This document shows positions 3,383-32,259 of a DNA stretch of 51,775 nt, piece by piece. The notes under the pieces were generated by a model, which did no database searches, was not told where the DNA came from, and was given only the letters and a program-made list of their open reading frames with translations. The stretch is taken from IMG/VR virus record IMGVR_UViG_3300029286_000055, positions 1-51,775 of that record; one strand, 5' to 3'. A program made the translations under genes and the position numbers. Origin of the DNA: a virus. Position 1 is the stretch's first letter; each line of letters starts with the position of its first letter.

Positions 3383-3393
3383 GGTAAGGCTCT

Positions 3394-4065
3394 TTATGCT
3401 GTGTAAGAATACTTAACTACCCAATCTGATTGGATAATTCCCCCGTCACTAGCCGCAGTTTCGAGGTACAGTCTTAGCTTTTGCAGGGCAGTATCACCTA
3501 AAACCGTGTCCCCAGCTTTCCCAATCTTCCCTGTTACGGGGGTTGTTGCATCAACGGGCGTTCCTGAATTGTTGTAGAGGCATGAATCAACATGAAGAGC
3601 AAAGGCAGTGGCGAGGCTTATTCCCTCTTGACCACTTCCGTAGTCTTTCCCATATATTTTCACCTGGGCTCTTGTTCCATTGAAAGCATTTGCCCCAAGG
3701 GTTCCCCCAATATCGGCGTCTTGTTCCACACGAAGACCGCCCGAAAGTCCATCGGCGTTGTTCGCGCTGTTTCCAGAGGCCGCGCCCTTTGATTTCATGG
3801 TTGCATAGTCGATAGCTGCGGTTTGTGCGCCTCCATATGTTTGCGAAAACTCTGCAATGAATGTTCCAACGTCCACGATTGGATCAATAGTGGCGTTGTG
3901 TTTGATATATAAATTTTGCCATCCGGTGTTAGAAGCCTTTAAAATTATTGGGCAATATTCTCCGTTCACAACTGAACCAAGATCAACGCCGCTTCCCCCA
4001 CCCGCCAATGCGTCTGCTACTCCCGAACCACCCAAAGTTTTAGATACTGTTAAATTAACGCTCAT
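3394..4065 (-). CDS. Tail-tip or baseplate structural protein
   Basis: This 223-residue glycine- and alanine-rich protein lies between the hub-like protein and the fibre genes. The sequence shows ASNTGWQNLYIKHN near residue 45 and a C-terminal beta segment ending SDWVVKYSYTA. The N terminus (MSVNLTVSKTLGGSG) and composition resemble small siphovirus tail-tip proteins. No enzyme motif is visible. The structural assignment rests on position and composition. Confidence 0.6.
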   Translation of the reverse strand: MSVNLTVSKTLGGSGVADALAGGGSGVDLGSVVNGEYCPIILKASNTGWQNLYIKHNATIDPIVDVGTFIAEFSQTYGGAQTAAIDYATMKSKGAASGNSANNADGLSGGLRVEQDADIGGTLGANAFNGTRAQVKIYGKDYGSGQEGISLATAFALHVDSCLYNNSGTPVDATTPVTGKIGKAGDTVLGDTALQKLRLYLETAASDGGIIQSDWVVKYSYTA

Positions 4066-4083
4066 TCTAATGACTCCTTAAAA

Positions 4084-5790
4084 TTATGTTTCTTCGTCAA
4101 TAGTGGCACTATAACCGCCCACCGTTCCTGAGTACCCTGGCTCGTATCCTGAAAATGGGCACATTTGCATTGACCAAACTTTCATTGGTACATTAAGCCC
4201 TTTGGGATCATATCCAATTTTTCTAATCATCATTGGTACATCTTCGTACTTTATTGAACCAAGATCAATATTGACTTTTATGAATTGGCCTAAATCTAGT
4301 TTAGCAGCCCTCGAAGTAAGAGTCATCTCTATTAGCTCAGAACTTGAAGAAGCAAGCTTTATCATCTCTTTTAGATTTAAGATAACATCGGCCTCAACAT
4401 AAAAGTTTGGAAAGATTGCGCTTTTAGATATTTCTTTTCCCATTTGCGTTACAGCAAGGGCATTTTTGTAAAACGAAGTCTGCCTAGAATTGGCGTTTAG
4501 CCTTGGGTCAAAGTTGTAATCGGCCCTTGCCCTATTCCATATGTTTTGATCGTCCAAAGAAGGGGTAAGTGTTCCCGCAGCTATGTCCCAATTTTTCGCT
4601 GTGAAGCTTGGGGATGCAACAAACTCATCAAAGTGAATAGCAAAGAGCTTAAGCTTTAGACTTCTATCAATAAACATCTCAAGCCTTGCCTGTTCTAAAA
4701 GGGAAAGAACATATTGCACAAGGTCTTGTTGCTCTTGAATCCAAACCCTGCTTTTAAACGTCGAAATCGCGCTCTCTGCGGGCGAGGCTTTATCTCGATA
4801 CGTTGTCCAGTTCGATGCGAAATCACCGCCCGCAACCCCGCCATAAGTCTCTAAAATGTCTTTTGCTTGGGATACTATATTGTCGTCGTAAGACCCCAGG
4901 GTTTTACCTTTTACTTGGACAAAGAAGGTATCGCCTTTTTCATATCTAAACGGGGTCCCATCAATAAGAGTTGTCCCACCTGACCCATCTTGCTTTATAG
5001 AAAAGGCTCTGTTTCCTGGTATTATGTTAATGTCAGCAACATCGAACAAATAAAACGTATCCCCTCGGTAAACATAAACCTTTGCAGTATCAAAAAAGAA
5101 ATTGTCATTATCAGAAATTACCATTTCCATAGCAAGAGTACCGTCGATAACATTTGGATGCGCCCCGTTTATCGAGAAAGCAGGAACCGAGGCCCCTCTT
5201 GCATCAACGTTTACTGTCCAATCTCCATAGATTATTGGTATCACAATCCCTATATTTTCTTCTTCCACGTAGGGGAAAGTGGTGCGAGTAAACACGGCGT
5301 TAGGAAATTTTTTATTGAGAGAGTCAAATTTATCTCTTGCTATAAGTGTCATCCCTTCCCTGTTTCTCTGAGCCCCACCGATATCAGTTATCTGACCTTT
5401 GAAAAGAGTTTTATAGGTACTCGAAACATCTCTAAGGCCCATTTTTATCTCGATTGATTTGCCGATCCATCCAAGATAGTTCGCACCGCCCTGTAAGATA
5501 TTGTTAAATCTTCCCGCGACGTTCGAAATAAAAAGTTGAAGGGTTGAAAACTCTAGCGTTGGGCTAAGCCAATCGCCGAGGGTTCTTTCGATAACGGGGA
5601 ATTGTGTTAGGGCTTGATAAAAAGTTGATCCAACATATTTGTTGCGGTCAGAAATACGAAGCGTAGAAACGGGGCCCTCAACATCAGCTATCATCTCAAG
5701 CTTAGAGTCAAGGTTATCATGACAATCATCCAAAAAGTTTTGGTCAAGCGTTGTCGCTGTTAAATATGGCCTTCTGTCGCTAGTTCCCAC
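4084..5790 (-). CDS. Tail hub / tail-tip protein
   Basis: This is a 568-residue protein translated from a GTG codon at 5790 with GAGG about eight bases upstream; the start overlaps the preceding 53-residue gene. The first third contains IGKSIEIKMGLRDVSSTYKTL, then FKGQITDIGGAQRNREGMTL and IARDKFDSL, which resembles the curve-and-hub domains of phage tail-tip proteins. The C terminus holds LDLGQFIKVNIDLGSIKYEDV, typical of beta-barrel hub domains. Located after tape measure and distal-tail genes, it probably closes the tube and anchors the fibres. The exact family is uncertain. Confidence 0.65.
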   Translation of the reverse strand: MGTSDRRPYLTATTLDQNFLDDCHDNLDSKLEMIADVEGPVSTLRISDRNKYVGSTFYQALTQFPVIERTLGDWLSPTLEFSTLQLFISNVAGRFNNILQGGANYLGWIGKSIEIKMGLRDVSSTYKTLFKGQITDIGGAQRNREGMTLIARDKFDSLNKKFPNAVFTRTTFPYVEEENIGIVIPIIYGDWTVNVDARGASVPAFSINGAHPNVIDGTLAMEMVISDNDNFFFDTAKVYVYRGDTFYLFDVADINIIPGNRAFSIKQDGSGGTTLIDGTPFRYEKGDTFFVQVKGKTLGSYDDNIVSQAKDILETYGGVAGGDFASNWTTYRDKASPAESAISTFKSRVWIQEQQDLVQYVLSLLEQARLEMFIDRSLKLKLFAIHFDEFVASPSFTAKNWDIAAGTLTPSLDDQNIWNRARADYNFDPRLNANSRQTSFYKNALAVTQMGKEISKSAIFPNFYVEADVILNLKEMIKLASSSSELIEMTLTSRAAKLDLGQFIKVNIDLGSIKYEDVPMMIRKIGYDPKGLNVPMKVWSMQMCPFSGYEPGYSGTVGGYSATIDEET

Positions 5791-30960: not shown

Positions 30961-31069
30961 ATAGTGATACTGGACAAATAAAAGATTTCAAAGACATTAC
31001 AAAATTGGATTAACTTAGGCGAGCAAATAGCGGCATATAATGAGTATGAACAAGAGAAGGGGGCATAAT
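30957..31069 (+). pseudogene. Tiny reading frame apparently split by a frameshift
   Basis: An ATG overlapping the previous stop (ATGA) reads MNSDTGQIKDFKDITKLD and stops at 31013. The +1 frame is then open from the middle of this stretch, giving NWINLGEQIAAYNEYEQEKG, and stops with TAATG at the start of the methyltransferase. The two halves together fill the gap and show coupling at both ends. A small gene broken by a one-base change, or a real frameshift site, would explain this. Confidence 0.35.
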
Positions 31070-31937
31070 GCTATATGGCTTGGATATATTTAGCGGAATC
31101 GGTGGAATTACACTCGCACTTAAAGATTGGGTTAGACCAATCGCCTATTGTGAAAATGATCCCTATTGCCAAGGGGTCTTACTCTCAAGAATGCAAAGCC
31201 ATGAGCTTCCAATTGCCCCCATATGGGATGACATTAAAACACTCTCAGGAAAGTATTTACCCAAAGTTGACATTATTTATGGGGGATTCCCATGCCAGGA
31301 CATTAGCGTTGCTGGAAATGGAAAAGGCTTGGAAGGAAAGCGAAGCTGTTTATTTTTTGAAATTATGCGCCTGGCCGAAGAAATCAAGTCGAAGTTCGTA
31401 TTCCTTGAGAATGTGCCAGCAATCAGAACAAGAGGTTTGGGAGTTATTCTCAAAGAATTTACCAAAGCAGGGTATGATTGTAGATATGGTTTTTTATCCG
31501 CTTATGACGTGGGAGCTCCGCATAAAAGAGAAAGATGGTTTTTGTTGGCCTACACCCGTAGCAAGCGACGACAACAAGAGTCCAGAAGCACACATGAGAA
31601 TGAAAGCACGAATGAAGGGCGGGGCGAGAAAAAAGCCAACATCCCTACAAGTTGTTGTAAAAGGAATAGAGAGGGGAATGTGGCCCACCCCAACAAGCTC
31701 ACTTTACACTTGGCAGGATTTGATTCAAAGTTCCGGAAACTCAGAAACACGCCAAAAGTACAGCAAAATTTCCCCCCGTGGGGCCTTGAACCCGAGGTGG
31801 GTAGAGTGGCTGATGGGGTACCCCTTAGAGTGGGCCAGCTTAAACACCTTGGGAATGCTGTGGTACCGCAACAAGCAAAAGAAGCATTTAGAAGGTTAGT
31901 GGGATTAACTAGTGAGGTAACCAATGGAAAAAAATGA
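31068..31937 (+). CDS. DNA (cytosine-5) methyltransferase
   Basis: This 289-residue enzyme carries the C5-methyltransferase motifs in order: motif I DIFSGIGG near the N terminus, motif IV GGFPCQDIS with the catalytic cysteine, motif VI ENVP, motif VIII KRERWF and motif X HLGNAVVPQ. The region between motif VIII and motif X is short and basic (TRSKRRQQESRSTHENESTN), so the target recognition domain is poorly defined. It would methylate phage DNA, probably against host restriction. No cognate restriction gene is visible. An alternative frame is open over almost the whole gene (see the next entry). Confidence 0.92.
   Translation: MLYGLDIFSGIGGITLALKDWVRPIAYCENDPYCQGVLLSRMQSHELPIAPIWDDIKTLSGKYLPKVDIIYGGFPCQDISVAGNGKGLEGKRSCLFFEIMRLAEEIKSKFVFLENVPAIRTRGLGVILKEFTKAGYDCRYGFLSAYDVGAPHKRERWFLLAYTRSKRRQQESRSTHENESTNEGRGEKKANIPTSCCKRNREGNVAHPNKLTLHLAGFDSKFRKLRNTPKVQQNFPPWGLEPEVGRVADGVPLRVGQLKHLGNAVVPQQAKEAFRRLVGLTSEVTNGKK
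31075..31899 (+). CDS. Overlapping +1 frame with phage methyltransferase-associated motifs
   Basis: This 274-codon frame starts seven bases after the methyltransferase ATG and lies almost wholly inside it. Its C-terminal half reads LPKQGMIVDMVFYPL, DGFCWPTPVASDDN, GMWPTPTSSLYTWQDL and GALNPRWVEWLMGYPLEW. From memory, WPTP(T)xSD repeats and LNPxWVEWLMGxP are recurrent in phage-encoded methyltransferase-associated proteins. The same bases encode EPEVGRVADGVPLRV and HLGNAVVPQ of the canonical frame. It may be a true overlapping gene, a frameshift product or a relic. Translation is not shown. Confidence 0.4.
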   Translation: MAWIYLAESVELHSHLKIGLDQSPIVKMIPIAKGSYSQECKAMSFQLPPYGMTLKHSQESIYPKLTLFMGDSHARTLALLEMEKAWKESEAVYFLKLCAWPKKSSRSSYSLRMCQQSEQEVWELFSKNLPKQGMIVDMVFYPLMTWELRIKEKDGFCWPTPVASDDNKSPEAHMRMKARMKGGARKKPTSLQVVVKGIERGMWPTPTSSLYTWQDLIQSSGNSETRQKYSKISPRGALNPRWVEWLMGYPLEWASLNTLGMLWYRNKQKKHLEG

Positions 31938-32259
31938 AGTTCTACGGATAAGGCAAGAGATAAAAGATAGGTTTAGTAAAGCAAAGGAAGACTACAAAAA
32001 GGCCCTAGCTGAAAATGACTATCAGCTCTCTATATTTAACGACGCCGAGAATATTGCAGAGGGTGAGATAATAGAAAGAGAAGAGCTAGAGCGAGAAATT
32101 GAAGGCGAGGAAATTATATACGAACAAAGAACACATGGCGAATATATCAGAGAAGAGGAAGAGATTGAAGACGAGGAAAACGAGCCTGAAGAGCTAGACC
32201 TTGAAGGAAGCGAAGACATTGAAGAGGATGACTGCGATGAAGAAGACTACTTTAAATAG
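31924..32259 (+). CDS. Very acidic early protein
   Basis: This 111-residue protein is dominated by glutamate and aspartate, especially from residue 45 on (EELEREIEGEEI, REEEEIEDEENEPEELDLEG, EEDDCDEEDYFK). The first 40 residues form a charged helix. Its start overlaps the end of the methyltransferase. Phage proteins this acidic can mimic DNA and block nucleases or repressors; that idea is inferred from composition and from its place beside a modification enzyme. Confidence 0.65.
   Translation: MEKNEVLRIRQEIKDRFSKAKEDYKKALAENDYQLSIFNDAENIAEGEIIEREELEREIEGEEIIYEQRTHGEYIREEEEIEDEENEPEELDLEGSEDIEEDDCDEEDYFK

Follow-up and report, generated by a model that had tools for sequence, protein, structure and literature searches.

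A nested +1-frame reading frame in a phage cytosine methyltransferase gene probably encodes the recognition half of a two-chain enzyme

Results

Layout of the locus

The window, i.e., the whole stretch of DNA analysed here, is a 51,775-base virus record with matches to portal, terminase, tape-measure, primase, helicase, and DNA polymerase proteins. It contains an 870-base phage gene (alpha) that holds a nested open reading frame in the +1 frame (beta) in full (Table 1). Both frames, including the 274 codons of beta, exist as described in the initial annotation, and the set of C5-cytosine DNA methyltransferase motifs (PF00145) that it had assigned to frame 0, i.e., motifs I, IV (PCQ), VI (ENV), VIII, and X, was located completely in alpha. 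The alpha protein matches the Pfam model DNA_methylase (PF00145; E=4.8e-40) over residues 5–179 only, the coverage of the NCBIfam model TIGR00675 likewise ends at about residue 179–180, and the stretch resembling M.HhaI comprises residues 5–164; alpha also matches phrog_363 (E=7.6e-62). Motif IX was searched for in the alpha chain and is absent there, and a segment resembling it is present in the +1 frame instead. Alpha thus departs from the monomeric form of the enzyme, in which motif IX and the target-recognition domain (TRD) lie within the same chain.

Table 1 Features of the alpha/beta methyltransferase locus, in positions of the window
Feature	Position	Strand	Evidence
AAGGGGG, candidate ribosome-binding site common to both starts	31057..31063	+	sequence; tandem starts behind a single Shine-Dalgarno site in relatives
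TAA stop in the +1 frame, just 5' of beta	31066..31068	+	sequence
alpha, C5-cytosine methyltransferase catalytic chain, 289 aa, frame 0	31068..31937	+	profile matches
beta, nested +1-frame ORF, 274 aa, predicted recognition chain	31075..31899	+	phrog_1008, stop depletion, held-out profile
alpha motif I (DIFSGIGG)	31083..31106	+	sequence
alpha motif IV with catalytic Cys (GGFPCQDIS)	31281..31307	+	sequence
alpha motif VI (FVFLENVPA)	31395..31421	+	sequence
beta conserved N-part (FSKNLPKQGMIVDMVFYPL; family S-x-TWPxxGMxxxGxxYxLP)	31447..31503	+	sequence, relatives
alpha motif VIII (PHKRERWFLLA)	31518..31550	+	sequence
recognition (TRD) segment with two WPTP repeats, +1 frame under selection	31546..31785	+	profile and substitution rates
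beta motif IX-like segment LNPRWVEWLMGYPLEW	31786..31833	+	position, spacing, codon conservation
alpha pre-X segment EPEVGRVADGVPLRV, frame 0	31788-31832	+	sequence; overlaps beta IX-like segment
alpha motif X (LGNAVVPQQAKEAFRRL)	31848..31898	+	sequence; motif X profile in frame 0 of relatives

The phage methyltransferase-associated family that the initial annotation had pointed to is real: the beta protein matches PHROG_1008 ("DNA methyltransferase", E=2.2e-19). It has no significant match to a Pfam or NCBIfam model, and a Pfam scan of 68 beta members gave no match either. The two WPTP repeats are found as WPTPVASDD (31546-31572) and WPTPTSS (31681-31701), in a segment of beta that occupies the expected place of the TRD, and across the same recognition segment frame 0 encodes a weakly conserved linker without stops. 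All of the overlapping peptides previously quoted from the two frames are present. The claim that two motifs share the same bases holds for LNPRWVEWLMGYPLEW and EPEVGRVADGVPLRV, but the span given for them (31779-31835) was a few bases too wide.

The segment LNPxWVEWLMGYPxGW of beta has the spacing of the canonical motif IX of the monomeric enzymes compared, L-x-P-x7-G-[FY]-P-x2-[FW]. When beta was compared with monomeric methyltransferases using hhalign, only this segment aligned, in the correct place but without significance (probability 0.2%, E=0.29), and the assignment to motif IX is by position and spacing. Searches of PDB sequences with beta and with a beta profile returned no relevant match. 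AlphaFold models of beta alone, made for the window protein (73-row alignment) and the compact relative L148 (68 rows), had a pLDDT of 59-60 and a pTM of 0.24-0.27 with no PDB fold match; they were uninformative and were counted neither for nor against any reading. Our guess is that beta may fold only together with alpha.

A strongly acidic ORF of 111 aa (window 31924-32259) without a Pfam match shares 14 nt with the end of alpha. The neighbouring proteins that were scanned, which represent part of the ORFs, included no recognisable restriction enzyme, and a scan for promoters and terminators gave nothing above chance.

Paired start codons

The ATG of beta lies 7 nt after that of alpha, and the candidate site AAGGGGG is spaced 4 nt from the alpha ATG and 11 nt from the beta ATG. 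Because of the TAA stop in the +1 frame that precedes it, the ATG at 31075 is the earliest possible beta ATG. In gammaproteobacterial relatives, a GGAG or GGAGG is typically followed after a few bases by ATGAATG or GTGAATG (the layout GGAGG-N4-ATGAATG), with a TGA directly before the beta ATG. The two starts are therefore probably served by one ribosome-binding site, as judged from these sequence layouts.

The position of the beta start differs among clades. Over motifs I-III, 6 stops were seen in the +1 frame in the clade of the window where 69 were expected and 3 in the gammaproteobacterial clade where 16 were expected, whereas the remaining members showed no depletion (226 seen, 207 expected). 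These counts indicate that the beta start adjoins the alpha start in two clades and lies later in the others, such as in Paenibacillus phage Bloom, where it is at alpha codon 68.

Constraint on the two frames

The longest open run in the +1 frame is 276 codons, compared with a mean of 75, a 99.9th percentile of 155, and a maximum of 192 in 20,000 recodings, i.e., synonymous shuffles of the alpha codons that keep the alpha protein and its codon usage; the other alternative frame of the gene has 31 stops. Depletion of +1 stops beyond that of frame-0 recoding (p<=0.01) was found at 97 of 103 loci, many of which had been retrieved with beta, compared with 2/103 for the other frame. Among the loci retrieved with alpha alone (L005-L017), all 13 were at the p floor of 0.002.

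A profile of beta that was derived from distant relatives and excluded the window's own clade gave the window a score of 149.0 bits, while the recoded alphas that served as the null had a mean of 47.7 and a maximum of 90.5 bits. By part, the scores (and null maxima) were 45.1 (15.8) for the recognition segment, 44.1 (27.8) for motif IX, and 52.4 (49.1) for the part of beta over motifs IV-VIII. Four other members of the clade gave a similar result overall with a weaker excess over IV-VIII, and selection on the part of beta overlapping IV-VIII is weaker (z 1.7-3.3).

Between close pairs, substitutions fall mostly at frame-0 third positions in the regions of motifs I-III, IV-VIII, and X, and mostly at frame-0 first positions, which are the third positions of the +1 frame, in the recognition segment and IX. 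The rates at frame-0 codon positions 1/2/3 are.055/.013/.118 over IV-VIII,.177/.047/.043 over the recognition segment,.111/.017/.014 over IX, and.066/.016/.156 after IX. This flip between regions indicates that the constraint on I-VIII and X acts through alpha and that on the recognition segment and IX through beta. Codon conservation at identical alpha residues in distant relatives agrees with expectation before residue 60 and after residue 265 (ratio 0.98-1.07) and is 2.84-fold the expectation at residues 241-252, the site of the beta motif IX; over 31786..31833 the same codon is used in 86% of pairs versus 32% expected. The reverse test, of frame 0 given beta, gave a weak result when confined to the recognition segment (mean z 1.5, versus 6.3 for +1 given alpha). 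Both frames are thus open and under purifying selection, and the constraint passes from frame 0 to the +1 frame exactly over the recognition segment and motif IX.

Could the +1 frame be open only through the composition and conservation of alpha, with no translation? Recoded alphas do keep a weak +1 similarity in the conserved region IV-VIII (null mean 24 bits), and in high-GC members such as L056 and L106 the depletion of +1 stops is individually not significant. Such a by-product does not account for held-out beta scores far above the recoded nulls, for the 7 +1 stops seen over IV-VIII in 159 genes where 383 were expected, or for a codon-position pattern that, in the recognition segment and IX, turns to the +1 frame; it is refuted statistically, and we hold it to be extremely improbable. 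The initial annotation had proposed to dismiss the +1 frame if its conservation did not go beyond that imposed by frame 0 or if close relatives with an intact frame 0 often had +1 stops. The conservation in +1 exceeds the demand of frame 0, and close relatives keep the +1 frame open. Its suggestion that both products are made is strongly supported by the held-out profile scores, the codon-position substitution rates, and the stop depletion, and beta is almost certainly translated and functional.

Distribution and relatives

Searches with beta recovered at least 558 confirmed loci in viruses, of which the best 80 were examined, and 276 loci in bacterial and archaeal genomes, of which 80 were examined. 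In nearly all of the latter 80, the N-part of alpha and motif X are in frame 0 and the N-part of beta and motif IX in +1; the exceptions are L169, which is tandem, L170 and L174, which are without some of the parts, and L139, L186, L193, and L194, in which the alpha frame is interrupted. Of the ~160 related loci examined in viruses, bacteria, and archaea, nearly all have the nested arrangement, the family being present in tailed phages, plasmids, many bacterial phyla, and archaea, and beta always co-occurs with alpha in the loci found. Because the genome loci had been found with beta, 274 genomes of one class were also searched with an alpha profile. The N-part of beta was present in the +1 frame in 12 of the 13 best matches examined, six of which also had a significant IX, and in none of the 17 weaker matches examined (L217-L233).

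In four tandem relatives (L018, L020, L023, and L169), alpha stops after motif VIII, and beta comprises the WPTP segment, the IX-like segment, and X. Mycobacterium phage ICleared (L235:1474-2569) also has a tandem layout; its gp77 has an annotated start (1985) at the end of the conserved N-part of beta, and the +1 ORF opens at 1823.

Several loci have an altered alpha frame. An in-frame insertion 5' of motif IV is found in the alpha of L016 (2326-3726), L017 (2326-3642), L028 (373-1548), and L029 (3001-4179), containing a helix-turn-helix (HTH)-like region according to Pfam and, as judged by eye, an HNH-like stretch (HHDDYN..CQRCHHEWH). The same four loci have an in-frame alpha stop that falls precisely after FP and before CQ in the catalytic motif, and the +1 frame is open across this stop. 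In L194 (3379-4344), an in-frame TAG interrupts alpha after motif VIII and beta (3383-4336) is intact. A frameshift splits alpha into gp75 and gp76 in Mycobacterium phage Seabastian (L113:2492-3251), where IX and a WPTP-like region of beta are in the third frame.

Two chains or one

A double programmed frameshift would yield the observed switch of selection from frame 0 to +1 and back, with a single polypeptide that takes I-VIII from frame 0, the recognition segment and IX from +1, and X again from frame 0. This would leave unexplained why an open and conserved +1 frame already exists upstream, over IV-VIII, and why frame 0 is stop-free through the recognition segment: given beta, 533 frame-0 stops were expected over this segment and IX and 0 were seen, a count that is conditional on alpha ORFs already reaching X. 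Moreover, the second ORF of the tandem relatives itself has X, and relatives place a beta start codon behind a Shine-Dalgarno site. Taken together, the stop counts in both directions (7 vs 383 and 0 vs 533) favour two full chains over a double frameshift, which we consider very unlikely.

If two chains are made, beta might still be a separate regulator or inhibitor expressed from the same gene and no structural part of the methyltransferase, as its lack of a significant sequence or fold match to the methyltransferase domain of a solved structure could suggest. This is similarly unlikely, however, as the very parts that are missing from alpha, motif IX and a conserved recognition domain, have their counterparts in beta, where the IX-like segment has the correct spacing, as the tandem relatives join the WPTP segment, IX, and X in beta, and as beta is invariably found with alpha. 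Of the two products envisaged earlier, the making of both is therefore supported, but not a protein of separate function, since beta is probably the missing recognition part (TRD segment and IX). Very probably, a single stretch of DNA thus codes here for both chains of a C5-cytosine DNA methyltransferase, with beta as the recognition half.

Discussion

For the two-chain enzyme proposed here, one Shine-Dalgarno site would direct ribosomes to both ATGs. Alpha would provide AdoMet binding and catalysis (motifs I-VIII) together with the closing helix (motif X), and beta the WPTP-rich target-recognition segment and motif IX that alpha does not have. The chains would then assemble into one active C5-cytosine methyltransferase, as in M.EcoHK31I, presumably for the modification of phage or host DNA. 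The translation of beta, the assembly of the heterodimer, and the enzyme activity are what we infer from the genomic patterns.

The small chain of M.EcoHK31I is encoded in an alternative frame within the large-chain gene and starts well inside it. The window is similar in that the gene for the large chain encloses that for the small chain in a different frame, and it differs in that the beta start is only 7 nt from the alpha start. The likeness in layout to M.EcoHK31I (and M.EaeI) extends to a large chain with I-VIII and X and a small chain with IX. In M.EcoHK31I, motifs I-VIII and X are in one polypeptide and IX in another, and the predicted TRD is in the larger chain (PMC3404938), whereas the recognition segment is here under selection in the +1 frame, i.e., in beta, which counts against the analogy. 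The present family further differs by its presence in phages and many bacterial phyla and by having no restriction enzyme among the scanned neighbours. A search of plasmids for relatives of M.EcoHK31I returned none, with no enterobacterial plasmid match.

M.AquI also consists of two chains, with I-VIII in one and IX and X in the other, small chain (PMC3404938). The four tandem relatives match this layout, while in the window X belongs to alpha, whose gene contains beta in full. The ShiLan domain is a hidden HNH endonuclease in an out-of-frame ORF of a phage methylase gene that represents a homing insertion (PMC11855218); the resemblance is limited to the out-of-frame ORF in such a gene, as beta is part of the gene's own conserved body, and family scans found no HNH family in beta.

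For the paired starts, the known parallel is rnpA-rpmH of Thermus, in which two out-of-frame starts a few bases apart are served by one Shine-Dalgarno site; the authors of that study knew of no other such shared start in bacteria (PMC9841429). The sequence of the window, and more strongly that of its gammaproteobacterial relatives, shows two out-of-frame starts behind one candidate site, but the genes are unrelated, and the two products are here proposed to be parts of one enzyme.

Retention of both motif sets in one gene had been described as unexplained by ordinary annotation. M.EcoHK31I, with motif IX in a second polypeptide, sets a precedent (PMC3404938), and a few records of phages already list the two nested ORFs. 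In Paenibacillus phage Bloom (gp56/gp57) and Escherichia phage K1G (gp34/gp35), the nested +1 ORF is annotated and both products are named methyltransferase; no explanation was found in the P. larvae phage genome paper. The PHROG library, in which beta and alpha match PHROG_1008 and PHROG_363, respectively, is silent on the nucleotides that they have in common. A literature search of partial coverage returned no account of nested alpha/beta methyltransferases as a family. While the principle thus has precedent, three features appear to be new: how widely the family occurs, a recognition segment coded by the second frame, and the pairing of the two starts.

Family annotation mostly records alpha alone, beta is usually unannotated, and the beta family is without a Pfam or NCBIfam model. 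An enzyme expressed from the annotated product would consequently be without its recognition half. The locus is a clean study system for dual coding, with one enzyme in two frames and a constraint visibly handed between them, and likely a natural example of two start codons on one ribosome-binding site, for which, according to PMC9841429, a single bacterial case had been described. It seems fairly likely that overprinting of the catalytic and recognition chains in two frames behind one ribosome-binding site characterises a class of methyltransferases that is widespread in phages and prokaryotes. If so, annotation as a single cytosine methyltransferase would in many genes cover just half the enzyme, and the family would be the broadest case known to us in which two parts of one enzyme are overprinted on each other.
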